Notes under the pieces: generated by a model
Seen by the model: the letters and a program-made list of their open reading frames with translations, nothing else
The model's database searches: none
What the model was told of the DNA's origin: nothing
Program-made: the position numbers and the translations under genes
DNA from: Pedobacter sp. KBS0701
GTDB lineage: Bacteria > Bacteroidota > Bacteroidia > Sphingobacteriales > Sphingobacteriaceae
NCBI RefSeq assembly: GCF_005938645.2
Contig: NZ_CP042171.1
Coordinates: 2,604,001 to 2,668,000 of the forward strand
Direction of reading: 5' to 3'
DNA length: 64,000 bases
Shown: in pieces, positions 3,972 through 59,170 of the stretch
Numbering within the stretch: the stretch's first letter is position 1
How the letters are laid out: every line of letters begins with the position of its first letter

Positions 3972-5930
3972 TCAGTACAGGATTGTAGGTTTGATAAAGA
4001 CCAGGGTCACCACTTTGTTATTGGATTTCTCCCTGCTGCTAAAGAGCCATTTCAGTACCGGGATACGCGAAAGTATAGGGATACCTGATCCGCTTTCATT
4101 GCTTTCTGTCCTTTCCAGGCCGCCCAGCACGATCATATCTTCATTCCTCGCCCTGATCATCGAAGTAAACTTGCTCGTTGATTTGGGCGGCGGCGCATTC
4201 AGCGGCGGATTGCCGATAAAGTCCGAAATATTTACTTTTATATTCAGCGTCACCTGATCATCGCCCGACACTACCGGTCTGATATCGATTTCCAGGTTAG
4301 CATTCACCTCTGTAAACTGTTCGGTCACCACCGTCTGCGCATTGAGGGAGGGGATCACATTCTGCGTCCTTTGGCTATAATATCGCGAACTTCCGATACT
4401 CAGGCTTGCCGAATGGCCGTTGAGCGTAGAGAGTTTCGGCACCGAGCGGATGTCCACATTACTGTTGTTCTCCAATGCACTGAGCTTGACATAAAAATTC
4501 GGGGTCACACGGCCCAGGTTCACCGAGCCGTTCTTCCCCAGTTTCGAGAGAAAATTATTGATCGAATTTGCCCCAAAGGTATAATCGATTCCCGGCAGTA
4601 TCGTGCCGCCGGTCCTTACACTGTCTGATACTCCTGCAGAAATCCCCGTTTTAACTGTTTTGCCTTTGCGCACATCCACCAAGGTTACCTCGATCAGCAC
4701 CATCGGCACTACGCGGTCAATCTGTTTAATATAGTTCTCGATCTCATTCACCTGAGGCGAAGATCCTGAAAGCAGGAGCGTATTCTGCTCCCTGAACTCC
4801 TTGATCTCCACCCCTTTTTTCCATTCTGCCGGGATCATCATCTGGATGGTGTCCAGTGAGCGGTGTTGCAACTGCACAATCCGGTTGGCCCTAAGCCCTT
4901 CAAGTTTCCGGTCCCCGATCAGGTAAACCCCACCGTCCTTTTTATAGGTATATTCGGTACCCTGCAAAAGCGCGGTCAGGAAAGAATCGTAACCGATACC
5001 GCTAAGCCTGGTGGTCACCGTACCCTTGATATCAGAATAGATAAAATAATTAGCACCCGCCTCGGCAGAAGCCGACTTAATCAGGTCCAGGATCGGCGTA
5101 TTTAGCGCGTCTACGCTTACTGTGCGGTTGCCCTGTGCATCTTTTCTGGCACTGAGGTTGAAATTTCCTTGCGTCTGCCCGCCTCCCTGTCCGGAAGGCC
5201 TGTTTATTTTTTTTACCGCTGTAGCATTATCCCCGTTCACATAAAGCTCTTCCCCCTCGCCCAAAGGCTGAAAGATAAATACCCCGTCATTGGTGCGGTT
5301 CATCTTGAGGGAATTGGCATAGGCCAGTTTTTCCAGTGCCACCTCAAAGGGCGCCGCCGCAATAAAACCACTTACCCTTATGTCCATCAGGCTGACCGGC
5401 ACTATCACATTTTTCTGAGAAAGCTGGCTGATCTTTTTGGCCACCTGGCCCAAGGTATCATTATTGAGTTCAAAGCCCAGGTATTCGTTCGATGAATTGT
5501 AGTTCACCCGGATATCCCTGGGCACCACCGCCCTCCTTGCCACCGCAGCCTTGGTCACCGACATGATCGAACCGATCAGGTTGATGTCAAGGTCATATTC
5601 CTTCACCATAAACAATAGCACGTTCAGTGCCGTTTCGTTCCTGAAATTGGTATAGACCTTAAAGGTCAGCCCGGGATCGATATTGATGTTCAGGTTGTTC
5701 GACTGCGCCAGTGCCCTTAAAAACTCCTGCGCCGAAGCCCCTGAAATCGAGATCTGAACGGTCTGGTTAAGCCCAGGCACCGTTACTGCAAGGTTCTTCA
5801 GCCTTTCTTCCACTGCTTTGAGCCGCTGCGACTGTTCGGTACCCTGCTGTGCCAGTCCTTTAAGAGAAATGAAGGTTAGCAGCAATATCAGTAAACAACC
5901 TGCCTTAAGAAATATAGTTGTGTTTTTCAT
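3972..5930 (-). CDS. Secretin (GspD/PilQ family)
   Basis: 652 aa outer-membrane secretin. An N-terminal signal peptide (to about residue 28, LKGLAQ) is followed by an STN/N0-like domain (ISISGASAQEFLRALAQ) and N1-type domains. The C-terminal secretin domain has recognisable blocks: EVTLVDVRKGKTVKTGI, PNFYVKLSALENNSNV, SVPKLSTLNG and the terminal MIVLGGLERTE...GIPILSRIPVLKWLF...LVFIKPTIL. The family forms the gated outer-membrane channel for pilus fibres or secreted proteins. It starts 21 bp after the ATPase gene, and its stop is 2 bp from the PilM/N-like gene. Length is normal for a secretin. Confidence 0.95.
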   Translation of the reverse strand: MKNTTIFLKAGCLLILLLTFISLKGLAQQGTEQSQRLKAVEERLKNLAVTVPGLNQTVQISISGASAQEFLRALAQSNNLNINIDPGLTFKVYTNFRNETALNVLLFMVKEYDLDINLIGSIMSVTKAAVARRAVVPRDIRVNYNSSNEYLGFELNNDTLGQVAKKISQLSQKNVIVPVSLMDIRVSGFIAAAPFEVALEKLAYANSLKMNRTNDGVFIFQPLGEGEELYVNGDNATAVKKINRPSGQGGGQTQGNFNLSARKDAQGNRTVSVDALNTPILDLIKSASAEAGANYFIYSDIKGTVTTRLSGIGYDSFLTALLQGTEYTYKKDGGVYLIGDRKLEGLRANRIVQLQHRSLDTIQMMIPAEWKKGVEIKEFREQNTLLLSGSSPQVNEIENYIKQIDRVVPMVLIEVTLVDVRKGKTVKTGISAGVSDSVRTGGTILPGIDYTFGANSINNFLSKLGKNGSVNLGRVTPNFYVKLSALENNSNVDIRSVPKLSTLNGHSASLSIGSSRYYSQRTQNVIPSLNAQTVVTEQFTEVNANLEIDIRPVVSGDDQVTLNIKVNISDFIGNPPLNAPPPKSTSKFTSMIRARNEDMIVLGGLERTESNESGSGIPILSRIPVLKWLFSSREKSNNKVVTLVFIKPTILY

Positions 5931-5951
5931 TTATCTGAGCGTAAAAAATAT

Positions 5952-7376
5952 TTAGATGGCTAATAATAAAGGGTAAATTTCTTCTAAGCTGGTGAGGCCA
6001 CTGGCAAAGAGCGAAAAGGCATTGCCGGACAGGGTATTAATCCCTTTTTCAGCCAGCAGCCCATTAATGGACATGTTCCCGTTCCTGATCTGTTGGGAAA
6101 GGTCTGCATCAATCGGCACCACCTCATAAACCGCCTTCCTGCCACTATAACCTGTATAATAACATTTTGAACAGCCCGCCGCAACGAAATGGCGCTCTAC
6201 TACCGCAGGCGGCCTGAACTGCCTTGGGTAAAGCCCGGCATCCATCACCTCCTCTTTTTTGCAGACCGGGCACAACAGCCGCACCAATCGCTGCGCCACG
6301 GTGGTATTGAGCGTATTGGCCACCAGAAAACCTGGTATGCCCATATCCATTAGACGGGCCACCGTACCCCATGCCGAATTGGTATGGATCGTCGACAAAA
6401 CCAGGTGGCCGGTCAAAGCCGCACGGATGGCCATATTGGCCGTTTCGGGGTCACGGATCTCCCCGACCATGATCACATCCGGATCCTGCCTTAAAAAAGT
6501 CCGCAGCGTAGCGGCAAAACCCAGCCCGATATTTTCACGTAGCTGCACCTGGTTCACCCCTTCCAAGGTATATTCTATAGGATCCTCGATCGTAAGGATA
6601 TTGCGTGTACTTTTATTGAGCAGTTTGAGCGTGGCATATAAAGTAGTCGTCTTTCCTGATCCAGTCGGACCACTGATCAGGATAATTCCGTTCGGGCGCT
6701 GTACCCCTTCCAGGTAATGCCGCATATCCTGGTCGGATAATCCCAAAGTATTCAGGTCGATGTCCGTACTGCTATTGTTTAGTAACCTCAGTACCACCTT
6801 TTCTCCGTAAAGGGTAGGCAGCACCGATACCCGGATATCAAAAGCACTCTGCCTGGCCGAACTGTACTGTATCCTGCCATCCTGTGGCAGTCGTTTTTCG
6901 GCAATATCCAGGTTGGCCATGATCTTGATCTTGTTGATCAGTGCGGGATAATCCTTTTTTTCGATCTGGTAACGCTCGATCATCATTCCGTCGATCCGCA
7001 CCCGTACCCGGGAGCGTTTTTCAAAAGTCTCAATGTGGATATCACTGCTCTTGAGCCTTCTCGCCTCCTCGATCAGTACACCCAGGAAATCATCCCCCGC
7101 TGAGATCACTGAAAGCTCCTTTTTTTCAGCCCCGGCTGAAACATCACCAAGGTAATGTTTGGACAGCAACCTGCTCAGTTCAGCATTTTCAAGCACCGAG
7201 AGGCTCACCACGCAGCCCAGAACAACTTCGAGTTCGTCCCTAAGGGAACCTTCATTGCCACTACCGTCCCAGTAAAGTTCGATTCCGCCCATTGGGCCAT
7301 TTTCCTTTGGAAAGACCCTGTACTGCATGGCCGTTTCCTTGGATACCAACGCCAATATCTCCGGTCTAATTTCCAT
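5952..7376 (-). CDS. GspE/PilB-family assembly ATPase
   Basis: 474 aa hexameric ATPase that powers pseudopilus/pilus extension. The sequence has the N2 domain with SSDIHIETFEKRSRVRVRID (about 110-129), a Walker A GPTGSGKTTT (236-245), the Asp box LTIEDPIEY (261-269), a Walker B VIMVGEIRD (301-309) and a His box LSTIHTNSA (327-335). A four-cysteine zinc module (CPVC 369-372 and CSKC 402-405) is characteristic of the extension ATPases GspE/PilB and not of PilT. The N-terminal MshEN-like domain is short. Its start overlaps the stop of the prepilin peptidase gene by 11 bp. Confidence 0.95.
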   Translation of the reverse strand: MEIRPEILALVSKETAMQYRVFPKENGPMGGIELYWDGSGNEGSLRDELEVVLGCVVSLSVLENAELSRLLSKHYLGDVSAGAEKKELSVISAGDDFLGVLIEEARRLKSSDIHIETFEKRSRVRVRIDGMMIERYQIEKKDYPALINKIKIMANLDIAEKRLPQDGRIQYSSARQSAFDIRVSVLPTLYGEKVVLRLLNNSSTDIDLNTLGLSDQDMRHYLEGVQRPNGIILISGPTGSGKTTTLYATLKLLNKSTRNILTIEDPIEYTLEGVNQVQLRENIGLGFAATLRTFLRQDPDVIMVGEIRDPETANMAIRAALTGHLVLSTIHTNSAWGTVARLMDMGIPGFLVANTLNTTVAQRLVRLLCPVCKKEEVMDAGLYPRQFRPPAVVERHFVAAGCSKCYYTGYSGRKAVYEVVPIDADLSQQIRNGNMSINGLLAEKGINTLSGNAFSLFASGLTSLEEIYPLLLAI

Positions 7377-30044: not shown

Positions 30045-30284
30045 ATGGAAATTCAGGAATTATTACACACCCCTATTAACAGACTTGGTTTCAGTACTGG
30101 TTTTTGCAAAATTTGTGAGTCCATGAATTTCACCACGCTACTAGATGTAACTTCTATTTCGCCTGAACAATTAATTAATAAAGGAGGGTTTAGCTACAGC
30201 TGGCTAGGAGAACTCAGCGGCTACTTAGATAAGAAAGGATTATTGCATCTATTGCAAAAACTACAGGAAAAAAATTACGGTTAA
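30045..30284 (+). CDS. Alpha-CTD/helix-hairpin-helix-like small protein
   Basis: 79 aa. The sequence INRLGFSTGFCKICESMNFT, TLLDVTSISPEQLINKGGFS and LGELSGYLDKKGLLHLL fits the helix-hairpin-helix of the RNA polymerase alpha C-terminal domain in a stand-alone form. Such proteins may bind DNA or polymerase. The last 71 bases overlap the RteC-like gene tail-to-tail on the other strand. It is divergent from the XRE gene. The fold call is from pattern only. Confidence 0.6.
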   Translation: MEIQELLHTPINRLGFSTGFCKICESMNFTTLLDVTSISPEQLINKGGFSYSWLGELSGYLDKKGLLHLLQKLQEKNYG

Positions 30285-31362
30285 TCCGCTGAACCATACG
30301 TTGTAAAAGGTCCCGCACGCGGGCAGCAGTATGTTGATCAATACTATAAAATTCTTTACTGAGACTTCCTGGAGAAATAACCGATTGTCTTTTACTTTGA
30401 TAATGACCGGCAACACTTTTAAAAATGAATTGGAGATTCTGAGTGGCGAAAACACTTTCCTCATATAATAACCTAATCAGGCAGGAAAGGTGTGCGACCG
30501 ACATCTCCAGTGGTATTTTGGGAACCGCCACTTCATCTTTATTACATACAGCTTTTTCTGTCAGCAAAATCTCTTCCTGCAACCAATCCGTTATCATCGT
30601 TTTTATGGAAGGCCAAGCCGGATTATAAACCCAATTTTTCACTTCAGGTAATGACATCATCAAGGCTTTCTGCTCCATTAGATAATCAAGCCTTTCATTT
30701 TTATCCCCAAGGTATCCAGGGGAATTCCGAATAGTATCCTGAAGATAAACCAAGAAGGAAAGGTTATTGAAATTCGAACGGACCAGTAATGAAACCAGCG
30801 GAATCTCCCCGGCTGTCGATAAAGCGTCGGATTCCAATAGTTGATTGGTGATATACCCAAAATAATGTAATGAACGAAAGCTAAATTCCACCGCCCCGAT
30901 GTGATCAGACATCAGGGTAAACCACTTGGATAGGCATAAACTCAGAGCAGCATCAATATTACCCGACCGCAGTATTTTTCGGACCGCATTAATATTCCCG
31001 CTAAGTTGCGAAACCAGTCTTTGATGATACATTGCAGGTGCAACTGCATCCTCGTTAAAATATTTGGAACAGTATTTCTGCAGATGATCGATCAGCGCTA
31101 AAAATTCATTTTGGGAACTGAAGTATTGTTTTGGATTTGGCGAATGAGATAATCGAGTAGAGATAGTCGATATAACTTCAATGTGATAATGAAAATAACG
31201 CACCAGGCTGCTCTCGGGGATATTGGAAAATAATACATCTTCCCATGCTTGAAAGATTTGCCCGAACCGAGTTTTAAGATCAGTTCGGGCAGTTGTGTTG
31301 CTGTTGGAATATATTTGCTCAATCAAAATTTCTTCTATATCCTTCAGTTCATTTTTAAGCAT
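30214..31362 (-). CDS. RteC-domain regulatory protein
   Basis: 382 aa from the ATG at 31362 (MLKNELKDIEEILIE, behind an AGGAAA-like ribosome site); the open frame continues to a TTG at 31395. The C-terminal third matches RteC: MSVAHLSCLIRLLYEESVF, KSVAGHYQSKRQSVISPGSL, then RVRDLLQRMVQRINR. RteC-type proteins act in excision and transfer regulation of Bacteroides conjugative transposons, and the family also occurs outside such elements. No integrase or tra gene is in this window. It lies 35 bases downstream of a 47-aa small ORF and near a LanB locus. Confidence 0.75.
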   Translation of the reverse strand: MLKNELKDIEEILIEQIYSNSNTTARTDLKTRFGQIFQAWEDVLFSNIPESSLVRYFHYHIEVISTISTRLSHSPNPKQYFSSQNEFLALIDHLQKYCSKYFNEDAVAPAMYHQRLVSQLSGNINAVRKILRSGNIDAALSLCLSKWFTLMSDHIGAVEFSFRSLHYFGYITNQLLESDALSTAGEIPLVSLLVRSNFNNLSFLVYLQDTIRNSPGYLGDKNERLDYLMEQKALMMSLPEVKNWVYNPAWPSIKTMITDWLQEEILLTEKAVCNKDEVAVPKIPLEMSVAHLSCLIRLLYEESVFATQNLQFIFKSVAGHYQSKRQSVISPGSLSKEFYSIDQHTAARVRDLLQRMVQRINRNFFPVVFAIDAIILSYLSSR

Positions 31363-31396: not shown

Positions 31397-31540
31397 TTAC
31401 TTTTTGAAAATATGAGTGCTGGTTATTGTACCAGTAGCGGCGGTGGTATCCGTTTCTGATATATTACCGTTGCGCTGGAATGTCCCGTAGCGACTGTAAG
31501 TTTGTGTTCTTTTTTGCGGAAGTTTTTTGGATTTTGTCAT
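31397..31540 (-). CDS. 47-aa Thr-rich small ORF, possible RiPP precursor
   Basis: MTKSKKLPQKRTQTYSRYGT then FQRNGNISET and a Thr/Ser-dense tail (DTTAATGTITSTHIFKK). The N-terminus is basic and the C-terminal third contains 8 Thr and 1 Ser (of 18 residues) and no Cys. It ends 35 bases upstream of the RteC-like start and is divergent from the LytS kinase at 31639. The full-length LanB dehydratase lies 1.9 kb away. Seen: the frame and its composition. Inferred: that the Thr/Ser tail is the LanB substrate. It could also be an ordinary small protein, or chance. Confidence 0.45.
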   Translation of the reverse strand: MTKSKKLPQKRTQTYSRYGTFQRNGNISETDTTAATGTITSTHIFKK

Positions 31541-31638
31541 GATTTCTATTTTTTATGTTTAAATTAATATGAATTTGATGTGAATGCACATTTATTACAG
31601 ATCTCTAATGTTTCGAGGTATAAACAGCTATTTTAGCC

Positions 31639-32727
31639 ATGGATTTATTTAAGCTTCCAATCAAGAAATTCTCATCTAACATACTAGCGATTCATGTTAT
31701 TTGTTGGTCAGCCTTCATAGCGTACGAGCTTTCAATAGTCTATTTTACCATAGGAACGATAGAAAGTCCTTACATCTATTTTATTTATTACCCAATTAAC
31801 ATTTGTTTTTTCTACCTCTATGTGACGCTATTAAACCATACAATCATCGGTTGGAAGGTCAATTTTCTTAAATTGATTATCGGCTATTTCGTATTAGCTG
31901 TGCTGTATCTTTTGTTAAAGTATACAGCAGATTGTTTGTTGGAAGATCCACCCAACAGAACGGGAAAATCTTATGTATATATTGGAGCATTCGCTCCCCG
32001 GAATATAATAAGAGGTCTGAATTTTACCATATTAGGAACTTTTTATTGGTCTGCCAGTCATATTTCATATTTCCACAAAAAATTTCAACAATCTGAAAAC
32101 AAAAAGCTAGCAATAGAAAAAACCAATGCAGAATTAGAAACACAGCTAGCGAAAACACACAACGCATACCTCCAACAACAGATCAACCCACACATGCTCT
32201 TCAATGCTCTTAACTTCGTCTATAACAATACACAAAAATACTCCGAAGACGCAGCCCACTGTATATGGCTACTTTCAGAGATCATGCGCTTCAGCCTGGA
32301 AGAAGCAGGTTCCGATGGAAAAATAAAATTAGCCAGAGAAGTCGAGCAGATTGAAAACCTCGTGGCCATCAACCGATACCGTTTTAGAGAGCCCTTATAC
32401 CTCAGTGTAGAAATTGGAAACGATTTGAACAGTTACAAAATCATTCCATTGATCTTACTTACCCTAACTGAAAATATATTTAAACATGGGAATTTAACCG
32501 ATCCCAAGTCACCCGCAAAGATTCAACTATCTACGGACGAAACCGGAAAGTTAACTTTTCACAGCCTGAATCTGAAAAAATCAAAGAACGGACATGCCCG
32601 CGAGCGAAAAGCACTAGGCCTTCAAAACATCAGGCTCCGGCTGGATTCATTCTACAAAGACAACTACACCCTTCAGATTAACGAACCGGGCGAATATTAT
32701 GAACTCACTTTAACCCTCCGATTATGA
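31639..32727 (+). CDS. LytS-family sensor histidine kinase
   Basis: 362 aa. Four N-terminal TM helices (residues ~15-130) form the sensor; a coiled coil leads to the His_kinase domain with QQINPHMLFNALNFVYNN (phosphoacceptor His about 180) and FSLEEAG. The C-terminal ATPase region has LTLTENIFKHG and a glycine-box GLQNIRLRLDSFY. This is the LytS/YehU subclass, which pairs with LytTR regulators. The stop overlaps the next start by 4 bases (ATGA), a translational coupling. Confidence 0.92.
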   Translation: MDLFKLPIKKFSSNILAIHVICWSAFIAYELSIVYFTIGTIESPYIYFIYYPINICFFYLYVTLLNHTIIGWKVNFLKLIIGYFVLAVLYLLLKYTADCLLEDPPNRTGKSYVYIGAFAPRNIIRGLNFTILGTFYWSASHISYFHKKFQQSENKKLAIEKTNAELETQLAKTHNAYLQQQINPHMLFNALNFVYNNTQKYSEDAAHCIWLLSEIMRFSLEEAGSDGKIKLAREVEQIENLVAINRYRFREPLYLSVEIGNDLNSYKIIPLILLTLTENIFKHGNLTDPKSPAKIQLSTDETGKLTFHSLNLKKSKNGHARERKALGLQNIRLRLDSFYKDNYTLQINEPGEYYELTLTLRL

Positions 32728-33461
32728 ACTTAAACTGTTATATCATTGACGACGAATACCATTCGATCGAGGTATTGGATAAATATGTTAATCAAACGCC
32801 AGGGCTAAAACTCGTTGGCAGTTCCACAAACCCACTACTCGCGCTTGAAGAACTGTGCCACGTCCCCACACCGGACATTATCCTGTTAGACGTTGACATG
32901 CCCCAATTGAATGGCCTGGATGTGGCAGACCTCATTGGTTCAGCCTCCAACATTATTTTTACCACTTCCTACCGGGAGTATGCACCGGAAGCATTTGAAA
33001 AAGATGCGGTAGATTACCTGCTCAAACCTATCCATTACTCCAGGTTTTTAAAGGCGGTTACCAAAGTACGGTCCAACCTCAGCAGTCAGACCACTCATGT
33101 TGCCTCTAGTCCTTTCTTTTTTGTGAAAAGCAATATTAAAGGAAAATTCAACCGCATCACCATCGCGGATATCCGTTACATCGAAAACATCGGCAACTAC
33201 ATCACTATCCACATGAAAGATGAACCAGTAACGACTTACCTCACCTTGGCAGAAGTCCTAACGAAACTACCTGAAGATAATTTTTCGAGAATACACCAAT
33301 CTTTTATCGTCAACCACGCCCTTATTCAATCCTTAGAATATGGCCAGCTCAGGCTAACAGGTGGAGAGACCATTCCAATCGGCGTGACTTACCGTTCCGC
33401 CTTCCGTGAAAAGGTCCAACCGGCCTTACTGATCAGTAAAAGAGACCGGAGTAATCATTAG
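32724..33461 (+). CDS. LytTR-family response regulator
   Basis: 245 aa. The receiver domain has IIDDEYHSIE, phosphoacceptor Asp in IILLDVDMPQLNG and the Lys of DYLLKPIHY. The C-terminal LytTR DNA-binding domain has IRYIENIGNYITIHMKD, DNFSRIHQSFIVNHA and LTGGETIPIGVTYR. It forms a two-component system with the coupled kinase. Its 3' end overlaps the LanB gene end by 4 bases in tail-to-tail orientation. Confidence 0.92.
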   Translation: MNLNCYIIDDEYHSIEVLDKYVNQTPGLKLVGSSTNPLLALEELCHVPTPDIILLDVDMPQLNGLDVADLIGSASNIIFTTSYREYAPEAFEKDAVDYLLKPIHYSRFLKAVTKVRSNLSSQTTHVASSPFFFVKSNIKGKFNRITIADIRYIENIGNYITIHMKDEPVTTYLTLAEVLTKLPEDNFSRIHQSFIVNHALIQSLEYGQLRLTGGETIPIGVTYRSAFREKVQPALLISKRDRSNH

Positions 33462-36400
33462 CCCCGAGGTTTTTCGCGGGCCAAACATGAACTCATATAC
33501 TTTTGCAGGCAATAGTAAACCAGCAACTCCTGCTGTCTTTGTTTAACCGAAAAAGCCCTGTTCATCTGCATATGCACCAAATCAGCCAAAAGCCGCATTT
33601 TCTTTTCAACGGAATAGCGCTTTGTAAGGTTATCTAAAACTGTCATTTGCTTCAAAACCGGAGAAAAATGTTTGGCCAAGCCCTCATTTTTCACCAAGTC
33701 CGCTATAGTTGACTTCTTCTTCCTATACTGTCCATCCATTGCCACCGTAAGCGGTTTATCCGCCCTGAACTCTGCCATAAACTGATCCCTAACCTTTGTG
33801 CTATAATCCAGCGCATCAGCCCGGTCAGGGAAGAAACAACCGATCATGTGCATGGCAGTCAGGACAGCCACATCAAATTCGTTAAACGGGAGGCTATTGT
33901 TTTCCCTGAGTTTTAACAGCAAAACAGCAAAATGGCTTCCAGCGCCGAAAAGCTTTTCCACATCCGAAATAAGATCAGCGCCATACCGTTCTATTTCCCT
34001 CCGGTACGTGTCCCCCTGAAAATCCCGGATCAGTTTATCGTGCCCGGACGATTGAATTTTCTTCCGCAAGGCCACCAGCAAACCACCCAGGTCGGCTTCT
34101 TCCGCCCGTATTCGCAAGCGGAGGTGATAACCTTTGTCATTATAACGGATAAAAAACCAGTTTTTGATCCGCTTGGCGTAACGCTTGATAAACGGAAAAA
34201 CAATTTTGACCAGTATTTCATCTGACGCCCTTGGAATACAGAAAATTTTGAGGTACAGCCAATCACTCCCCATTAAAAAATCACGTTGCGCCTCACCATC
34301 AGAAAGTACACCATCCGCTTTCGTTCCCTTAAACACTTGCTGGTCATGTGCCAAAAAAGCAATCATCTGCCCGGCTACCGGTTTCCTGCCCGAAAGAACA
34401 GACCGGTCAGGCCATAAATATTCCTGAACCGTAATCCGCTTTAGCCCCTGAATGCATTCCATAAAAAATTTTGCCTCTATTGTATTGGCCAGGTCAAAAA
34501 CCAACTGCTGGTCGGTTGCCCCCAATGAAATGTGGCGGGGCAAGCGGTGCCTGCTGCGAAACCCATCCAGGGCATTCCTCCAATCAAGGGGATCACCTGC
34601 AGATAAAATCTCGAGATCAGCCTCCTTAAAACTCCATTTGGCCAGACAGAGGATTACCTTTCGGTAACAGACCCGCGGATAAAAAGGCAGTCCCGGAAAA
34701 AAACTTTCCAGACTAAAGGAAAGCCCAGCCTGTATCCCCTGATATTGCAGATCACACAACAACCTGAAAACCGGCGAATGGTTGTTCCGGAAGTTATAGG
34801 CCGTAGCCAGGCGTGGAATAACCCTTTTCTTCAGTTTCGACGACTCCAGGATCAGTTCATCCCCCTCCAGCGAAAGCAAAAGTTCACCGGGAAGGATGAG
34901 TTTTTCATCCCCCTGAGCCGGAAAGACATTTAACGGTATTTCATAAGGATATATAGCCCTGCGGCGATTGATATTATCCACGTGCAAATCAGACTGCTGG
35001 GCAATGTCCGCAAAAACAACGTCAGGATTTGCGGCAGCCTCTCTTTCCGCCAGCGCTTTGCAAAAATCATGCACCGGTTCACTAAAACAGGAAAACCTTC
35101 CGATCAGCGAAGTGGCCGTTACCCCACCCGAACTTTCAATGATCAGGTGCTCACCCGTCGAGCGGTATAGGAGCGCCTGCGTCTGGGGTAAAGGCAAAAC
35201 CGTTTTTTTCAGATTTTCCAGTTCGGTGACATCCGCCTCGCTGATCTGCAGCGGCGCCCAGGGATCACGAAGGCGGTCCCCTACCCACAGCCTGAACACC
35301 AACTGCTGGACAGCCCGCCACCCAAGCGTGCGGTTCTGATCTTCAGGTTTAGGAAAAGGAATGTCTTCCAGGATATCCTGATTAGGCATAACCGGGTCCA
35401 TATCCCCGTAATGCAGTCCCCCATCAGGATCCAAAGCCAGCAGCAAAGGCACCTTTTCCTGATCAAAGCGGGCACGGAAGTCACGGATAAAACGCGACAG
35501 ATCCGCAGGCTGCTCCGCATTTGATAATAACTGAAGTACATGGACAGCTTTGGACAGTCCCACCTGTTCAGCACGATCAGGTCCTCCAGTATGGTTTGGC
35601 CTTTCCAGGGCAGCATAAAATGGCTGGACAAGAGGTTTATTTTCCCGTGCAATTTCCCGGATATCCCCGGCCAAAGCCGATAGTGATGCTTCACCCGATA
35701 AGGGAATCCTGCTATAATTTTTCCAGAAAACATTCCAGCCGGGTACACTCAAAAAATCCTCGATGACTTCATTACTGATTATTTTGCCTTGAGTATCATC
35801 GAAAACCGCTCCGGCTTTAAGCAAAAACTGGATGTATTCTTCCGCTTCTCCCTCTGAACAATCACTATGCTGCATAACCCAGTTCAAGACCAGATCCCTG
35901 GAGATCTTTTTTGAAGATAAAAATGAAAAGAGCTGTACATTGAATTTTTCGGCTGCTATCCCCTGCAAAGAAAAGCTAAACTCCCCCCTATCATCCAAAG
36001 ATGACTTCGTATAGCGCAAAACGTCATTAAACCGATACAGCGCAGGGTTGGCGATTATTTCTTCTGGCAGGTCAGCCTCCGCCCTGTTCTTCAGTTTCCT
36101 TAAAAATTCCTGGTCTGGCAATAGGTGAAGTGCCGATTCATCGCTTCCGGCAAGCCTAACCTGACCGCCTCCTCCCCAATGGAGTAAAGTAAAAGAAGAA
36201 AAGCTCCCAAAAGGCGTGGGCCGGAAGCACATCCGGTTATAATATCTGTACAGCGTATGCTTTTGCCTATCAGAGAGTTGATCGAAATCAAATCCTTTTT
36301 TTTCAAGCGAGGTATAAAACTCCACACTGGCCAGGAAAACGGCATTTCGGAAAGCCTGTTCCTGAAGCACCTCAGGCAAACGCGAAAGATCATACCCGCT

Positions 36401-36472
36401 AAAGCTATAATAGGGTGCCCTTAAAAATACCTGTGGCAAAAACCGATAAACCATAGACCTACTTTCTTTCAT
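33458..36472 (-). CDS. Full-length LanB-type lantibiotic dehydratase
   Basis: 1004 aa, the normal length of full class I LanB enzymes. The N-terminal glutamylation domain is recognisable from YSFSGYDLSRLPEVLQE, YYNRMCFRPTPFGSFSSF (about 74-91) and later blocks. The C-terminal elimination domain runs from about residue 735 (DFLMGSDWLYLKIFCIPRA...IKNWFFIRYNDKGYHLRLRI). In the family these domains glutamylate Ser/Thr of a peptide from Glu-tRNA and eliminate glutamate to give dehydroamino acids. No LanC cyclase or split partner is visible nearby. The gene ends 4 bases inside the response regulator end. Confidence 0.93.
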   Translation of the reverse strand: MKESRSMVYRFLPQVFLRAPYYSFSGYDLSRLPEVLQEQAFRNAVFLASVEFYTSLEKKGFDFDQLSDRQKHTLYRYYNRMCFRPTPFGSFSSFTLLHWGGGGQVRLAGSDESALHLLPDQEFLRKLKNRAEADLPEEIIANPALYRFNDVLRYTKSSLDDRGEFSFSLQGIAAEKFNVQLFSFLSSKKISRDLVLNWVMQHSDCSEGEAEEYIQFLLKAGAVFDDTQGKIISNEVIEDFLSVPGWNVFWKNYSRIPLSGEASLSALAGDIREIARENKPLVQPFYAALERPNHTGGPDRAEQVGLSKAVHVLQLLSNAEQPADLSRFIRDFRARFDQEKVPLLLALDPDGGLHYGDMDPVMPNQDILEDIPFPKPEDQNRTLGWRAVQQLVFRLWVGDRLRDPWAPLQISEADVTELENLKKTVLPLPQTQALLYRSTGEHLIIESSGGVTATSLIGRFSCFSEPVHDFCKALAEREAAANPDVVFADIAQQSDLHVDNINRRRAIYPYEIPLNVFPAQGDEKLILPGELLLSLEGDELILESSKLKKRVIPRLATAYNFRNNHSPVFRLLCDLQYQGIQAGLSFSLESFFPGLPFYPRVCYRKVILCLAKWSFKEADLEILSAGDPLDWRNALDGFRSRHRLPRHISLGATDQQLVFDLANTIEAKFFMECIQGLKRITVQEYLWPDRSVLSGRKPVAGQMIAFLAHDQQVFKGTKADGVLSDGEAQRDFLMGSDWLYLKIFCIPRASDEILVKIVFPFIKRYAKRIKNWFFIRYNDKGYHLRLRIRAEEADLGGLLVALRKKIQSSGHDKLIRDFQGDTYRREIERYGADLISDVEKLFGAGSHFAVLLLKLRENNSLPFNEFDVAVLTAMHMIGCFFPDRADALDYSTKVRDQFMAEFRADKPLTVAMDGQYRKKKSTIADLVKNEGLAKHFSPVLKQMTVLDNLTKRYSVEKKMRLLADLVHMQMNRAFSVKQRQQELLVYYCLQKYMSSCLAREKPRG

Positions 36473-36560: not shown

Positions 36561-37031
36561 ATGAAAGCAATTTTTAAATCAACCGTTCCACCACTGCTTG
36601 TACTGCTATTTATATATGCTGCTTTAAGTAAGCTTTTTACTTTTTCAGACTTTGACCAGCAGCTTCACAACCAGTCTTTTCCGGGCTGGCTAGCAGATTT
36701 TCTGTTATATTTCCTGATACCTGTAGAAATCATTACTGCGCTGCTGCTGTGTTTCAAGCGAACTATTAAAACTGGCCTGCTATTTTCATCCGCATTGCTG
36801 CTGGCCTTCACCACCTACATCGCCTTGGTCATGCTCCACTTCTGGGACAGGGTTCCCTGTTCATGTGGAGGAATACTCAGTCAAATGGGCTGGACGGCTC
36901 ACCTGATATTCAACAGCATTTTTCTAATCCTTAACCTCATCGCTTTGTACTGCCATATTGCTGAAAGGGAGGTATCTAAAATAGTCGCCAACGACCAAAC
37001 AGGGGAAGCTGAAAACCTGCGAAAAGAGTAA
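36561..37031 (+). CDS. MauE/DoxX-type redox-associated membrane protein
   Basis: 156 aa from the ATG at 36561; the earlier in-frame ATG (36540) adds 7 residues. It has four TM helices and the signature loop VPCSCGGILSQMGW, which is the conserved C-x-C-G-G of MauE-like redox-associated proteins. Members are thought to shuttle electrons or disulfides across the membrane. It is on the opposite strand to LanB and in front of the DUF6520 gene, and so may act on cysteine-containing partners such as the nearby TlpA-like protein. The C-terminal tail is charged. Confidence 0.8.
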   Translation: MKAIFKSTVPPLLVLLFIYAALSKLFTFSDFDQQLHNQSFPGWLADFLLYFLIPVEIITALLLCFKRTIKTGLLFSSALLLAFTTYIALVMLHFWDRVPCSCGGILSQMGWTAHLIFNSIFLILNLIALYCHIAEREVSKIVANDQTGEAENLRKE

Positions 37032-37092: not shown

Positions 37093-37341
37093 ATGAAAAG
37101 TATCAAATTAAACTTTGCTGCTATCGCATTCCTACTTGGAACAGGCATAGCAGTAGCATCTACTGCTCAAAAGGCCAATGTTAAATGGGGTTACAATGGC
37201 ACCTCTTATGAACCGGTAACCGGCAATTACAGCTGCGAATCCTCTTCCAACCCTTGTACCCGTACTTATCCTGAAGGTCAAAATCCCAATGTCAATGACA
37301 GCGGCTACATTTTGCAGGAACTGGGCAACTTTTCCCAGTAG
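37093..37341 (+). CDS. DUF6520-family small secreted protein
   Basis: 82 aa: MKSIKLNFAAIAFLLGTGIA start with a signal peptide ending ASTAQ, and a mature part rich in Ser/Asn with two cysteines (NYSCESSSNPCTRTYPEG). This matches DUF6520, an abundant Bacteroidetes family of unknown role often encoded next to MauE-like proteins. A strong terminator follows 24 bases after the stop. Because the mature part is Ser/Thr/Cys-rich I considered it as a LanB substrate, but the signal peptide and family argue against it. Confidence 0.75.
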   Translation: MKSIKLNFAAIAFLLGTGIAVASTAQKANVKWGYNGTSYEPVTGNYSCESSSNPCTRTYPEGQNPNVNDSGYILQELGNFSQ

Positions 37342-48296: not shown

Positions 48297-49904
48297 TCAA
48301 CTCACCAGCCTATCAATCTCAGAAATTACAATTTCAGCTCGCTTCTGAAGAAAATCGTTATAGTTATCATTTTCATATAATTCCCGTTTGAGAGGAATTA
48401 AGTTACTTGTAAGAATTTCAGATAGCGTCGCTTGTGGTATGACCGTTACAAAATAGTCAGACGGTTTCTTACTAGATATTTTTTTATTTGAATCAGACGA
48501 CAAAAATGTAAAATTTGCGAGACTAAATATTTTTCCTTGAGGGAACCCCTGTTTCTTTAAAAAAGAATTTGGGAAAATGTGATGATATTGCTTTCTGTTG
48601 TACTCTGATAGCGCGTCCGCGACGTCCACATTTGTTCCCTTCACCAAATCCTTAGGTGTTTGTTGAGCTAATAACAATAAAAATGCTCTAGTTAATGGAT
48701 TTGCTTTTGAAAATTTTGTTTCTATTAGCTCGGCCTCGGTAACGGTTGTTCTTACAGAGTTTATTGCTGTTAGATTATTTTTCCTAATCTCCAATATTGT
48801 TTCAATATCTGCATTCATTTTTGCAGTTGTTTGACCAGTCGAATATCGATTCGAAAATGATGTCTTCCAAAACCATCGCTCTAAAGCCTTCAGTTGATCC
48901 GGGGTCTCCCGACCAGGTATGCTAAAAAATTTACAGATGGAAATAATTTGCTGCTGATAAGGTAAAAAATCTTGGTGAGCACACTTTAAATGAGTTGACA
49001 AAAAATCTATCGTTCTTTTTAAAGCCTCTGTAAACTTCTTCCAGTTATCTCTAACCTGTTCACCAGAAAGCTGGAGAATCGCTTGTGTCGTGGTGTCATT
49101 TTGTACAATAGCTGAGATTGTTTGAAGTAAAATATTGGATGTTATATCGCCAAAGTTTTTCTCATCAAGTTCTATTAATAATCCCTTGATAGATTCTAAA
49201 AGATGAAAATCATCAGTCCATGTCCAGGCAATCATAAGATCTAAAGTTGTAAGCTTTGTGCCTGTGCTATTTATCCTCTCAAAAATCATCCCCACCTCAG
49301 TTTTATTTCTGTTTTTTATTGTGACAACCGGCAGTTCATAATTTATGAGTTTAGAGAATAAATTCTGAGCAGCTTGATGATAAACATTATCTAGTGATTT
49401 TAGTGCTTCTATAAGGCTAGCGGCAGACAAAAAATTACGTAAATACATTACGTAATTACAGGTTGTATCAACCTCCGATAAAGGGACAAATCTTTCTGCT
49501 TTGAAATCGTAATAAATCTCAAAAATATTTAAATCTGGATTGTAATCAGAAGATGAGTCGTCTTGAACTGTTTTATCGCTGAATGTGGCATATACTGATG
49601 ATAGTCTTTGTTGACCATCTAATACATAGTTAACCGGGTATTCCAAATCATTATCTGGTATCGCGTATCCTGCGATATTCCTTGTATGTTTTAACCTTTC
49701 CGAAGTACTCCAAAGTAGGATGCTACCGATAGGATAATTTTTGACGATACTGTCCAATAGTTCCAAAATTTGATTTTGTTTCCAAACATATGGCCGTTGA
49801 AAGGCAGGTATCCTAATGTCCCCAGAATTAATCCTGTTGATAAGTTTATCGATTTTCTCCGAAGTAGCGTTAAGTTCTGGAGTTTTTGCGTTAATTGTAC
49901 TCAT
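48297..49904 (-). CDS. DUF262/HNH (GmrSD/SspE-like) restriction protein
   Basis: 535 aa. The N-terminal DUF262 domain carries RIPAFQRPYVWKQNQILELL, YPIGSILLWSTSE and the active-site-like VLDGQQRLSSVYATF. The C-terminal part holds the HNH-like YNRKQYHHIFPNSFLKKQGF of DUF1524. Such DUF262-DUF1524 proteins are nucleotide-dependent modification-sensing endonucleases (GmrSD, SspE). The modification recognised here is unknown. No phosphorothioation (dnd/ssp) gene is visible in the window. The GGCT-like gene follows. Confidence 0.85.
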   Translation of the reverse strand: MSTINAKTPELNATSEKIDKLINRINSGDIRIPAFQRPYVWKQNQILELLDSIVKNYPIGSILLWSTSERLKHTRNIAGYAIPDNDLEYPVNYVLDGQQRLSSVYATFSDKTVQDDSSSDYNPDLNIFEIYYDFKAERFVPLSEVDTTCNYVMYLRNFLSAASLIEALKSLDNVYHQAAQNLFSKLINYELPVVTIKNRNKTEVGMIFERINSTGTKLTTLDLMIAWTWTDDFHLLESIKGLLIELDEKNFGDITSNILLQTISAIVQNDTTTQAILQLSGEQVRDNWKKFTEALKRTIDFLSTHLKCAHQDFLPYQQQIISICKFFSIPGRETPDQLKALERWFWKTSFSNRYSTGQTTAKMNADIETILEIRKNNLTAINSVRTTVTEAELIETKFSKANPLTRAFLLLLAQQTPKDLVKGTNVDVADALSEYNRKQYHHIFPNSFLKKQGFPQGKIFSLANFTFLSSDSNKKISSKKPSDYFVTVIPQATLSEILTSNLIPLKRELYENDNYNDFLQKRAEIVISEIDRLVS

Positions 49905-50369
49905 GCGTTAATTGATTATATACAAGTATGTATTCACAAATATAATTTTTTATCCGAAATTCACTTGGAGAAAGTTATGTAATTTACACTCAAAGGGCAA
50001 CTAAGTATTACTCGAAAATTTATTAATATCCAATAAACATATTTGAGAACAGCATCAAGTGGTTCGAATAACTTTAAATAATTGAGTGGGCTCAAGAGGC
50101 TGAGGAAAGCTTGCAGATGGGCATGAAAAGACATAAAGAGTTTTTTTGAGGGTTGAGATATAGCCAACGGAAACACGCATCCTCAGATTGAAAGAGGTGA
50201 ATCACAGGCTAAAGAAAGTTGTAAAAATAAGGATAGATGTTCGGATAGAGTCATTGTATAAAGTTAAAATAGTTTAGGTGTGATGTTTCATGACATACAC
50301 AGATATAAAACTTTGAATTGGCGGAAAGGTGATTTAGTTATTTATTAACAGAATTCATAATTTAGCTAA
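49905..50369. other. Spacer, no gene seen
   Basis: 465 bases, AT-rich, without a supported gene. A GAGTTTTTTTGAGGGTTGAG stretch near 50139 resembles the GAGTTTGTTTG word after the XRE stop (45307) and at 47109. The right end is the promoter region of the next gene. Confidence 0.4.
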
Positions 50370-50847
50370 ATGGATATTTTTTTTTTACAACAGTGATTTA
50401 CTTGATATTTTCGTAACACGCCCACTTTCGCACATCACCTTGAATTGGGAATTGACTTGGAATGATGAAACTTCGCAGTACATACCGGAAGACGCGAGCT
50501 TTACTCAGCTACTGAATGAATTATTAAATGAATTAGAAACCATCTCACCACCTATTGACTATCATAAGCATGAGGACGCACTTGCGGAAAATGTTGTTAA
50601 ATTTTTAAAATGGAATATTAGCAAAGTTGAGAAAAGATGGAAGGGTGAAGATTATGACGCTATCTTAACTCAAGGTGGGTGGCATGATAAAGATTTTGAG
50701 AACCTATTGCTAGCAGCTGCTGGCAGAATAAATGCAGCAAAAATACATAACCACCTGCATTTTGATGATATGGAGAATGGTCACAGAAAACAACTTAGCT
50801 CTATTTTGACTATAATTTTATACCATAGATCTCAGAACATGAAATGA
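50370..50847 (+). pseudogene. Hypothetical protein broken or phase-varied at a T10 run
   Basis: An ATG at 50370 gives MDIF then ten T at 50377-50386, which puts the frame into a stop. With nine T the reading is MDIFFYNSDLLDIFVTRPLS, HITLNWELTWND, joining the long frame to 50847 (DASFTQLLNELLNELETISP...GGWHDKDFENLLLAAAGR). Without the shift the frame has no ATG, only a TTG at 50440. The protein is about 158 aa, soluble, of no known family. The homopolymer may be an assembly error, a dead gene, or a phase-variation tract. Confidence 0.6.
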
Positions 50848-51041
50848 GATAAATAGGTGATTTTTTGATTATTGAATAAATAAAATTAGCATGGGGTTAA
50901 TATTTTATACCTAAACTTATAAATATCAATGCAGTAATTTATGTCTCATAAAGTTGAGAGATATTCATATCAAAAGCCTGTAGACCTACATGACAGCCGC
51001 GACGAAGAAATTGAAGAAAGTATTTGGTTAGCTCAGGCATC

Positions 51042-51494
51042 TTAAATAAATAAGTTTCTGCTAGGTATTGTTTGATCCTTCGAGGCTTCGAGAAAAAGTA
51101 AAATTTGATTAATACATTTATTCAGATTTTTAGTTACGTCATGATCCCAAAATCGCATTACCGTATACCCAACCTCTTGAAGCCTCCTTTGGTTGATCAT
51201 GTCGCGCCGCATATTGCTTTCAATTTTCTTAATCCAGAAGTCGGCATTGCTTTTTATTTTTGATCTTTTCTTTTCCCATTGATACCCATGCCAAAAGCCA
51301 CCATCAACAAATATAGCGAGGCGGTGTTTATTAATCACTATATCAGGTTTTCCCGGCATGTTTTTAACATGTATCCGAAAGCGGATTCCATTAGACCATA
51401 ATGCTTTTCTAAGAAGCACTTCGGGCTTGGTATTTCTGCTCTTAATGCGGCTCATGTTATAAGAGCGGGTTTCTTTGCTGTGAACATCTGCCAT
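51042..51494 (-). CDS. vsr: Very short patch repair (Vsr) endonuclease
   Basis: 150 aa with the complete Vsr start MADVHSKETRSYNMSRIKSR, NTKPEVLLRKALWSNGIRFR, and the catalytic/zinc region KPDIVINKHRLAIFVDGGFW HGY, ending WDHDVTKNLNKCINQILLFL. Vsr nicks T:G mismatches arising from deamination of 5-methylcytosine and so accompanies C5-methyltransferases. It is divergent from the methyltransferase gene (319 bases between them). Confidence 0.93.
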   Translation of the reverse strand: MADVHSKETRSYNMSRIKSRNTKPEVLLRKALWSNGIRFRIHVKNMPGKPDIVINKHRLAIFVDGGFWHGYQWEKKRSKIKSNADFWIKKIESNMRRDMINQRRLQEVGYTVMRFWDHDVTKNLNKCINQILLFLEASKDQTIPSRNLFI

Positions 51495-51812
51495 TTAATG
51501 ATAAACACTGACTTTTCAAATTTGTGTGCCTGATGCTATTCCTTTTTTGGTCATCGTTTCAGGTACGACTTTAAACCATTCATCGACGATACTGAACATA
51601 GCTAAGATTTAAATAAATGCGCTCAATTAAAAACTATTTATCCGGGATGGGGTGACAATTCAAATTGTTCTAACAACATTCAAAAAAATATATACGTTTT
51701 TATTAAACATCAGGATTATTGACGAAATTCTTAAACCTGCTTTAAATTATTCGAAATCCCAAAATCATAAATTCGGAGGTAATTTTAACAGCTAGTTTGT
51801 ATATTTGGTTCG
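51495..51812. other. Promoter region between vsr and methyltransferase
   Basis: 318 bases, no gene. Holds the divergent promoters; a TATATTTG box lies at 51800-51807. Confidence 0.5.
51800..51807 (+). promoter_or_regulatory. -7 box of the methyltransferase gene
   Basis: TATATTTG fits TAnnTTTG and ends only 5 bases before the ATG at 51813, so transcription would start at or next to the start codon (leaderless mRNA). No convincing -33 motif was found. Confidence 0.45.
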
Positions 51813-52985
51813 ATGATGAAGAAAACAGGCATATTTTCCTTTTTCGCTGGCGCGGGATTTTTGGATTTGGGTTTTGAAAAGACCGGGAAGTTTGAAACGG
51901 TGTTCGTAAATGAATACCATAAACCTTTTATGGACATTTATAAAGGTGCACGAAAAATGATGGACACCACCCCGCCTAAGTACGGTTACGAAATAAAGGA
52001 TGTAACCAAATACACAGAAAAGGAGGAGCTGGAAAAACTAAGTTCAAATCTTAAAGATGCAAAGCATGAATATGATATTACCGGCTTCATAGGAGGACCG
52101 CCCTGCCCTGATTTTTCAGTTGGCGGTAAAAACAAAGGGAAACATGGGGAAAACGGAAAACTTTCGGGAACCTATATTGATCTCATAACCAGTACAAAAC
52201 CGGACTTTTTTCTTTTTGAAAACGTTAAAGGACTATACCGCACGGTAAAGCATAGGGAATTCTTCGAAGCGTTAAAAACGAAGCTGAAGAGCAATGGCTA
52301 TTACCTTACTGAAAATCTTATCAATGCCATCGAATACGGCGCACCACAGGACAGGCAGAGGATTATACTTATCGGCTTCCATAAAAGCTTTCTGTCAAAG
52401 CACGTAAAACCCGCAAAATTTCAGCAAACCGTAGACGGATTCGACTGGAATGCCCATACTGTTTTTGATAAAAATGAGATTTTCCGGAATGACTGGCCGC
52501 TACAGGATCTGTTTGCTGAAAATGAAGAACGGGCATTACCAATGAATATAACAGAAGAACTTACCGTGCAGCACTGGTTTAATAAAAATGATGTTCAAAA
52601 TCATCCTAATGCAGTTCATTATTTCCAGCCACGTGCCGGACTGGCGAAATTTATGACCATTCCTGAAGGAGATGATAAGAAAAAATCATATAAAAGGCTT
52701 CATCGCTGGCGCTATTCGCCCACAGTAGCTTATGGGAACAACGAAGTACACCTTCACCCTTTCTTACCCAGACGGCTGTCTGTCGCAGAAAGCCTTGCGC
52801 TTCAGTCCCTTCCAAAAGATTTTGTAATACCAGCTGAAATCTCTCTGTCAGATATGTTCAAGACTATCGGAAACGGGGTGCCGTATCTTGCCGCAAAAGG
52901 CCTCGCCAACACTATAGCAGATTTCATCACCAGACTTCAATCAGAAACAAACGCTCCCGTATATGAAGAAGCTCACAGCGGCTAA
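51813..52985 (+). CDS. C5 DNA cytosine methyltransferase
   Basis: 390 aa. The C5-methyltransferase motifs are in order: I FSFFAGAGFLDLGFEKTG (8-25), IV GGPPCPDFSVGG (94-105) with the catalytic Cys98, VI FENVKG (135-140), VIII QDRQRIILIGFH (179-190), and IX/X near the C-terminus (RRLSVAESLALQSLP, GNGVPYLAAKGLA). The PCP-D variant at motif IV is less usual than PCQ. The start could be the second ATG (51816). Overlaps the restriction gene by 23 bases, so the two are translationally coupled. The recognition site cannot be read from sequence. Confidence 0.95.
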   Translation: MMKKTGIFSFFAGAGFLDLGFEKTGKFETVFVNEYHKPFMDIYKGARKMMDTTPPKYGYEIKDVTKYTEKEELEKLSSNLKDAKHEYDITGFIGGPPCPDFSVGGKNKGKHGENGKLSGTYIDLITSTKPDFFLFENVKGLYRTVKHREFFEALKTKLKSNGYYLTENLINAIEYGAPQDRQRIILIGFHKSFLSKHVKPAKFQQTVDGFDWNAHTVFDKNEIFRNDWPLQDLFAENEERALPMNITEELTVQHWFNKNDVQNHPNAVHYFQPRAGLAKFMTIPEGDDKKKSYKRLHRWRYSPTVAYGNNEVHLHPFLPRRLSVAESLALQSLPKDFVIPAEISLSDMFKTIGNGVPYLAAKGLANTIADFITRLQSETNAPVYEEAHSG

Positions 52986-54045
52986 CATTGTTGCCTTTAT
53001 AAACCAGCTTGACAGATCTTTAACCTATAATTACATCGATCCGAAAAATACAGGGTTGATAGAGATTGTAAGTGTAGACCTGCCCGAAGGGCCGATCCGT
53101 ATACGCCGATGGAATCCGACTAAAGGAGAGAAACCCACAGGTAAAAAAGTCGAACCTATTTCGCCAGAGCTTATCTGGCGTATAGCTAATGCCATGGCTC
53201 CTAACCAGCCCGTTAATTTTGACCGGGTACTAGCGGGCAGCTATAATACCCGGAGTGTACTCGAAGCCCTGTTGGCCTATACCCCTCAGTTCTACTTTGC
53301 GTATCCCGGCCGCATAGAAACCAAAGGCGGTAAACCCCAGATTAAAAAAGGTCATAAACACCTGCTTTGGACTCCGGACGAGCCACATCAGGCAGGTATT
53401 TTTCAGGAAAAGAAGACCGAGGTTGTGATTTCGGAAGTCCCTGCCCAGGAAATTACATACGATGCCTTGGTCCTTCCCTCAGATACACAGGTCGAGCCAA
53501 TTGATATTGATATCCAACGCAGGCATGCACAGATACAGATTGCACTATATTTCGTCGGCAAACAACTAAATTTCAGGACATGGATAGCCCAAAATGACAA
53601 GGGAATTATTTACCAAAATAAAAAAATAGGTGAACTGGAGGGTGTGATTCCACGTCTGCAGGATGAAAAATTGCTTACAGCATACCAGGATGCTGCTCAG
53701 GCAGCACTATTAATAGATTGTATCTGGTTCAAGAACGGGAAGCTAATGCCAGCAGTAATGGAAGTAGAGCACTCGACCGGGGTAACAAGCGGACTAACCA
53801 GAATGAAAAAATTCAAGGATCTTTTTATCGGACTTGAAGGGATCAGATACGTCATTGTTGCAGATGATGCTGACCGGGCTAAAGTAGTAAAGGAGGCCAA
53901 TCACCCACAATTCAGGGAACTAAATATCCGATTCTTTCCCTATTCTGCTGTTGAGGAGCTTTATTCACTTTGCCAGCGCAGAAAAATTCAGGGTGTGACA
54001 GAAGCCTTTCTGGATTGCTATATGGAGCGGGTATTGGTGGAATAG
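52963..54045 (+). CDS. Type II restriction endonuclease
   Basis: 360 aa. A PD-(D/E)xK-type core is likely at IDCIWFKNGKLMPAVMEVEH (about 245-265, with the E-x-E variant) followed by STGVTSGLTRMKKFKDLFIG. The N-terminal half is a separate substrate-recognition-like region. The 5' end overlaps the C5-methyltransferase by 23 bases, a standard type II arrangement. Together with Vsr this is a complete methylate-restrict-repair set. The specificity is unknown. Confidence 0.8.
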   Translation: MKKLTAANIVAFINQLDRSLTYNYIDPKNTGLIEIVSVDLPEGPIRIRRWNPTKGEKPTGKKVEPISPELIWRIANAMAPNQPVNFDRVLAGSYNTRSVLEALLAYTPQFYFAYPGRIETKGGKPQIKKGHKHLLWTPDEPHQAGIFQEKKTEVVISEVPAQEITYDALVLPSDTQVEPIDIDIQRRHAQIQIALYFVGKQLNFRTWIAQNDKGIIYQNKKIGELEGVIPRLQDEKLLTAYQDAAQAALLIDCIWFKNGKLMPAVMEVEHSTGVTSGLTRMKKFKDLFIGLEGIRYVIVADDADRAKVVKEANHPQFRELNIRFFPYSAVEELYSLCQRRKIQGVTEAFLDCYMERVLVE

Positions 54046-57360: not shown

Positions 57361-57807
57361 ATGATTAGAGAACTAGAGATACCAAATAACAATCTGCTTG
57401 ATACACTGGACAACCCGGGCCGTGTTTCAGGTTTTATATCTCCTGCAGAGGACTACAAACAACGAAGATTACATATTGCACAAAGGATTGTTGGCGATCC
57501 AACCAACACCTACTACTTCGAGGCCGATGATGACCACATGCGCTACTTTGGCATTATGAAAGGGAGCATCATCGTCGTTGACAAATCCATCAAGGTAAGC
57601 TCCGGCATGCTGATCGTATGCTGCGTGGAAGAGGAATGGCTCACCCGTAAACTCCTCATAACAGAAGACAATACCTACCTGTGCATCAATGATGGCATGG
57701 AAGCCTGCATGAACATCACCGGGAAAAACATCACCGTATTTGGCGCCGTTACCTGGACCTGCCTACCCCATTCAAATCAGCACCATGTTCGCACTGGCAG
57801 ACTGTAA
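57361..57807 (+). CDS. UmuD-like S24 protein (active-site Ser not seen)
   Basis: 148 aa. It aligns with UmuD/LexA C-terminal S24 fold: TYYFEADDDHMRYFGIMKGS then IIVVDKSIKVSSGMLIVCCV and EWLTRKLLI. In canonical proteins GDSM marks the catalytic Ser; here the spot reads DDHM (His). The Lys of the dyad is plausible (TRKLL). It may not self-cleave and may act as a UmuC partner. Its end overlaps the UmuC start by 23 bases. Confidence 0.8.
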   Translation: MIRELEIPNNNLLDTLDNPGRVSGFISPAEDYKQRRLHIAQRIVGDPTNTYYFEADDDHMRYFGIMKGSIIVVDKSIKVSSGMLIVCCVEEEWLTRKLLITEDNTYLCINDGMEACMNITGKNITVFGAVTWTCLPHSNQHHVRTGRL

Positions 57808-59028: not shown

Positions 59029-59126
59029 AAGAACTACTGGCACTTATTAAAAGGTATTTACTCAAGGAAGCCTCTACCTTAAACCAAATTAACGATCAGC
59101 CAAAACCCAAACGGAGGAAGAAATAA
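59025..59126 (+). CDS. 33-aa basic peptide at end of umuC
   Basis: MKELLALIKRYLLKEASTLN and QINDQPKPKRRKK. Its ATG overlaps the umuC stop (ATGA), which fits translational coupling in the SOS unit. It has a short amphipathic helix and a basic tail. It could be a functional accessory peptide or a chance ORF. Ends 45 bases before the SRAP gene. Confidence 0.4.
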   Translation: MKELLALIKRYLLKEASTLNQINDQPKPKRRKK

Positions 59127-59170
59127 AACCAACTGGTATTGAAGCTTGTTATAGCTTTTAAAAACTAACG

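Follow-up and report, generated by a model that had tools for sequence, protein, structure and literature searches.

Among described systems, the closest to the locus considered here are the class I lanthipeptides (NisA/NisB/NisC; PedA15 of Pedobacter lusitanus), which likewise combine a short ribosomal precursor with a full-length, glutamyl-tRNA-dependent LanB dehydratase bearing the NisB catalytic residues. In NisB, glutamylation depends on R83, R87 and R786, and elimination on R784, E823, R826 and H961. LanB-type chemistry can also give dehydroamino acids without lanthionine, as it does with the goadsporin and thiopeptide dehydratases; the products there contain azoles or pyridine rings, and the systems include YcaO enzymes. 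A third point of reference is regulatory: Agr and ComCDE are peptide quorum-sensing systems that work through LytTR regulators.

The window, by which we mean the whole stretch of 64,000 nucleotides from Pedobacter sp. KBS0701 that was analysed, contains a locus that resembles each of these systems in part. Unlike the class I lanthipeptides just named, it is linked to a LytS-LytR pair; its peptide lacks Cys and has neither a GG nor an FNLD leader, and the cluster contains neither a LanC nor a C39 exporter. With goadsporin and the thiopeptides it would share a ring-free LanB product, without lanthionine; no YcaO enzyme such as theirs appears among the genes annotated around it. What it shares with Agr and ComCDE is the grouping of a small peptide gene with genes for a membrane kinase and a LytTR regulator, but the host here is Gram-negative, the locus has no processing or export gene, and the core is predicted to be dehydrated.

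The same genome also harbors a class I cluster of the Bacteroidota GG-leader type (L125; G000:C1:5155000-5173000), and a PF14028 LanB is what the two loci have in common. L125 encodes a precursor with a GG leader and two Cys in its core, its own LanB, a LanC and a C39-type transporter (the transporter and the leader were recognised by eye), whereas the window locus has none of the leader, the Cys residues, the LanC or the transporter. That LanC, at 5.16 Mb, is the only one in the genome and lies 2.5 Mb from the window cluster, where a search with PF05147 found none. A class I lanthipeptide has Cys in its core, which the window peptide does not; since both the Cys and the LanC are missing, the window peptide is not a lanthipeptide by definition.

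Would such a peptide have been noticed before? One large-scale survey of lanthipeptide precursors threw out Cys-free ORFs (PMC7268733), and a second demanded a Cys together with a neighbouring cyclase (PMC11251773), so that mining of this kind would miss the family. No NCBIfam or Pfam model scored above its cut-off for the window peptide or for ten relatives. A literature search found no paper on these peptides, with the proviso that the work on P. lusitanus (Caetano 2020, Bothwell 2021), where a prior mention is possible, lay outside its coverage. The family, in which predicted LanB chemistry on a Cys-free precursor is joined to a two-component system, is previously unannotated.

The peptide gene and its close orthologues

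The precursor peptide gene occupies 31397..31540 on the minus strand and encodes, from an ATG start, the 47-residue product MTKSKKLPQKRTQTYSRYGTFQRNGNISETDTTAATGTITSTHIFKK, in which neither a GG cleavage site nor a signal sequence was found. Downstream on the same strand lies a 382-aa gene, whose likely ATG (31362) is about 34 bp from the stop of the peptide gene, and 98 bp separate the start of the peptide gene from that of the divergent LytS gene (31639). The initial annotation described a minus-strand ORF of 47 codons with a basic N-terminus and no Cys, upstream of the 382-aa gene and divergent from LytS, and the translation and the coordinates bear this out; its count of 8 Thr and 1 Ser in the last 18 residues was off by one, as there are 7 Thr and 1 Ser.

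When GTDB genomes were scanned with the 382-aa protein, nine Pedobacter-type loci emerged, and at all nine a homologous ORF of 43-48 aa stands in the same place, 33-48 bp upstream of the 382-aa gene. Eight of these loci reach far enough to compare gene order, which is in common: peptide, 382-aa gene, LytS, LytR, LanB, small genes, SusD. The orthologues follow the pattern MxKxxKLPxK...(T/S)D(T/P)TT...STHIF, and in their alignment (A1) L7, P8, D31, T33, S41 and H43 are invariant, K3, K6 and K10 are nearly so, and Cys is absent from the window peptide and from the nine close orthologues alike. Given the nine orthologues at the same place, a dN/dS below 1 and the strict composition test described below, the ORF of 47 codons is a genuine gene and not a product of chance.

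Pairwise dN/dS values among the close orthologues are about 0.15-0.6, and the constraint is unevenly spread. The leader-like N-terminus (residues 1-14, MTKSKKLPQKRTQT; 31499..31540, minus strand), with its conserved K.LP.K, is constrained (pN 0.25, pS 0.43), the middle is loose (pN 0.51, pS 0.72), and the core-like C-terminus (residues 30-47, TDTTAATGTITSTHIFKK; 31400..31453, minus strand) is the most constrained part (pN 0.19, pS 0.71). Constrained ends around a loose middle are what one would expect of a leader, a spacer and a core, and the peptide layered in this way is under purifying selection. Between the starts of the peptide and LytS genes lies a box, ATCTGTAATAAA as read on the minus strand (31591..31602). 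Of 11 divergent intergenic regions aligned, most retain it, and we infer that it is a candidate promoter or LytR site.

A second copy of the window segment is found in the same genome at G000:C1:1425676-1427671 (L001, L025). The peptide is identical, LytS is truncated after about 208 residues, the 382-aa gene is 95% identical and also truncated, and no LanB is nearby. This copy is a recent partial duplication in which the peptide has been left intact.

The 382-aa neighbour (30214..31362, minus strand) is a helical protein that was called RteC-like, and it does show weak profile similarity to PF09357 proteins. The name is poorly founded: none of 13 members searched has a Pfam match, the RteC model PF09357 included, comparison with the profile of true RteC proteins gave a probability of 41 over 87 columns, and an AlphaFold model (pLDDT 73) found no PDB fold match at E<=0.001.

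LanB and the distribution of the peptide

The LanB gene (33458..36472, minus strand) encodes a full-length dehydratase with glutamylation and elimination domains (PF04738, E=1e-69; PF14028, E=4e-54). Residues R80/R84, R785/R787, E826/R829 and H967 match R83/R87, R784/R786, E823/R826 and H961 of NisB, so that by this matching the cluster has the LanB, with both sets of catalytic residues, that is expected of a class I lanthipeptide system. Nothing else in the window cluster resembles a LanB precursor.

How closely does the peptide follow LanB? A narrow profile built from the close orthologues (A1) was run over 251 Sphingobacteriaceae genomes and gave eight distant matches, seven of which adjoin LanB; at four of these loci no RteC-like gene is detectable. 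A broad profile (A3), run over the same genomes, matched 74 of the 115 that are LanB-positive and 2 of the 136 that are LanB-negative, and both exceptions contain stop codons. Across the whole genus Pedobacter the peptide is present in 84 of 116 LanB-positive genomes versus 1 of 29 LanB-negative ones (Fisher p ~3e-12, uncorrected for shared ancestry in genomes that are not fully independent); the single LanB-negative match is 28 residues long, contains a stop and has no LytS-LytR beside it. In relatives with the same LanB the peptide is conserved, the conservation on which the initial annotation had made its proposal depend. In a sample of 296 genomes of the phylum no peptide was found outside the Sphingobacteriaceae, and LanB is present in 22 genomes of other families in that sample. 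The genome-level occurrence of the peptide strongly follows LanB, in part through shared ancestry, and what one would look for in a ring-free, LanB-modified RiPP, a conserved short precursor associated with LanB, is found. Modules without an adjacent LanB also exist, and physical linkage is therefore not obligatory.

Matches in the LanB-negative genomes G004, G049 and G539 were rejected as members of the family, as all have stops and none lies by LytS-LytR. The one in G539, a Pedobacter (L126; G539:C2:435381-435470), is a leader-like ORF, MKNQKSKLPAQKTKTLYSFKKSIVVSS followed by a stop, which ends before the core and has no LytS-LytR beside it; possibly it is a relic.

Two further arrangements may be mentioned. 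Locus L029 combines one Cys-free peptide, which stands beside LytS, with a LanC and two LanB genes that differ from each other. At L043, L046, L060, L063, L065 and L073 the cluster of LanB, peptide and LytS-LytR is next to true RteC (PF09357), TraG, DUF4133 or DUF4134 genes, and it seems that in some species the cluster rides on, or inserts beside, a conjugative transposon.

The LytS-LytR pair as neighbour

LytS (31639..32727, plus strand) is a histidine kinase with about three TM-like stretches, judged by hydropathy, followed by a His_kinase domain (PF06580, E=1e-16), and LytR (32724..33461, plus strand) is a response regulator with receiver and LytTR domains (PF00072, PF04397). Forty further LanB loci, a few of them with a shorter LanB type of about 940 aa, were added to the set. 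When a peptide was loosely defined as a short ORF divergent to LytS with at least 6 Ser/Thr in its last 25 residues, 54 of the 55 LytS-bearing Sphingobacteriaceae loci had one, usually 45-210 bp from LytS; the two LanB loci without LytS (L037, L057) had none. Under a strict composition rule, such an ORF diverges from 37 of 54 LytS genes, compared with 0 of 592 other genes at the same loci.

The distant relatives found by profile share the motif K..KK..xxF/Y..(S/T)DPTTxTxTxxT. Family-wide, the sequences commonly begin with a Lys-rich stretch that has K(K)T-x-x-(F/Y) and continue with (S/T/G)DPT(T/N)xTxTxxT, often with HF or HI near the end.

All 18 of the LanB-distant profile matches that were fetched lie beside LytS and LytR. 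In the 12-15 kb fetched for these modules (L074-L089, L092, L093), which often number several per genome, LanB is absent. L027 is a comparable locus, with a peptide beside LytS-LytR and its LanB elsewhere in the genome. The window genome has seven modules of peptide and LytS-LytR, three of them with LanB, and of the eight LytS proteins there that are closest to the window's, itself included, seven are paired with a peptide. In six LanB-negative Pedobacter genomes only more distant LytS proteins occur. The LytS-LytR pair is the most constant neighbour of the peptide, kept even where LanB is elsewhere, and in the window, at the 54 loci and at the 18 orphan modules the peptide gene stands, as in LytTR-type signalling, next to a kinase and a LytTR regulator. 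The annotated neighbours in the window include no gene dedicated to export, such as one for an ABC exporter, and none for a leader peptidase, and the recurrent neighbour families in relatives include no consistent export or processing family.

At two loci (L090:7112-8093 and L091:4243-5202) there are tandem arrays of six near-identical precursors each, placed between LytR and LytS. The two arrays share the core STDPTANT(V/I)L(I/M)T.SS(M/L)SNIFNK, and a LanB of about 940 aa adjoins.

Proposed role, alternatives and genomic setting

We propose that the product of ORF 31397..31540 is the precursor of a RiPP. The N-terminus, rich in Lys, would be a leader bound by LanB, which would glutamylate and then dehydrate several of the core Thr/Ser residues to dehydrobutyrine and dehydroalanine. 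With neither a Cys in the peptide nor a LanC in the cluster, lanthionine rings would not form, and a linear peptide rich in Dhb would result. Since the peptide is so constantly paired with LytS-LytR, it may be that LytS senses the product or that the product induces the pair, and the product might accordingly be named a putative ligand or inducer of the divergently encoded pair. A single LanB may act in trans on the peptides of several modules in one genome, which would explain why LanB-distant modules are restricted to LanB-positive genomes.

What else might the peptide be? If it were an unmodified regulatory or signal peptide of LytS-LytR, with LanB acting on another substrate, one could understand why that pair is its most constant neighbour, at the 18 loci without a nearby LanB and at L027 as well, and why the LytS-less LanB loci have no peptide. 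It would then be difficult to see why the family is missing from LanB-negative genomes despite their LytS homologues, why the core is almost all Thr/Ser around a fixed D(P/T)T, and why the window cluster offers LanB no alternative precursor while elsewhere precursor arrays sit beside LanB; we think such a peptide unlikely. Cyclisation in trans by the distant LanC would make the ORF an ordinary class I lanthipeptide or bacteriocin precursor. The enzyme is indeed encoded in the same genome, and single Cys residues do occur in a minority of the family (for example in L028, L036, L041 and L051), but the window peptide could form no intramolecular ring, the LanC belongs to its own textbook cluster, L125, LanC is absent from 24 of the 41 genomes searched, and the core is strongly conserved, unlike that of most bacteriocins. 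This explanation strikes us as quite improbable.

The position of the ORF, on the same strand as the RteC-like gene and at much the same short distance upstream of it in all close relatives, would suit a small protein or leader-peptide attenuator of that gene. The RteC-like gene is present at just 28 of 56 LanB loci, however, and since half of the loci do without it, the peptide is independent of it and the attenuator was rejected. Most of the LanB loci without the gene still carry the peptide, and the orphan modules have no RteC-like gene either, so that we give an attenuator very little credence. Conservation with RteC alone where LanB is absent, an outcome that the initial annotation had set against its own proposal, is ruled out by the 18 of 28 LanB loci without the RteC-like gene that pass the strict criterion. 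A functionless ORF might be suspected in something so short and of low complexity, yet the orthology, the dN/dS below 1 and the genome-wide profile matches at one kind of place make chance scarcely conceivable.

A LanB-modified, ring-free RiPP precursor, whose product is most likely a ligand or inducer of LytS-LytR, is in our judgement the probable explanation as a whole. Within it, dehydration of the core by LanB appears very likely from the sequences, and a product without rings is likely. Signalling of the product through LytS is a more tentative idea, with the chances falling slightly short of evenly divided; a role as an extracellular signal is made less likely, since the locus encodes no dedicated exporter or leader peptidase and the peptide has no signal sequence. 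The earlier suggestion of a LanB substrate dehydrated without thioether rings is supported, and beyond that single-gene idea so is a family-wide class of precursors tied to LytS-LytR. One may speculate, with somewhat greater reserve, that the Sphingobacteriaceae use multi-channel signalling, in which several LytS-LytR pairs per genome would each have their own Cys-free, Thr-rich peptide, all dehydrated by one or a few LanBs in cis and in trans, and LanB products would be dehydrobutyrine-rich pheromones, not antibiotics.

LanB genes are common in Pedobacter (116 of 145 genomes), and many of them are found with neither a LanC nor an annotated substrate. The peptide family provides likely substrates for such LanBs, and its motif can be used by annotation pipelines. 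If the peptides do signal through LytS, they would constitute a new class of signal in Gram-negative soil bacteria, passed between cells or back to the producer itself.

Beyond LanB come small membrane and secreted proteins and then a SusD/SusC pair. By synteny, two of the small genes are conserved neighbours: one for a small membrane protein (36561..37031, plus strand), presumably of the MauE/DoxX type, and one for an 82-aa protein with a signal-peptide-like start (37093..37341, plus strand), which we take to be DUF6520-like. Elsewhere in the window, the genes for a secretin and a T2SSE ATPase at 3972-7376 belong to a type II secretion-like operon. At 48297-54045 the genes for a GmrSD-type nuclease domain protein, a C5 cytosine methylase and an unannotated protein of 360 aa come one after another, in what looks like a restriction-modification or defence island, and at 57740-59875 an ImpB/MucB-type Y-family polymerase adjoins a SRAP protein, forming an SOS-type pair.
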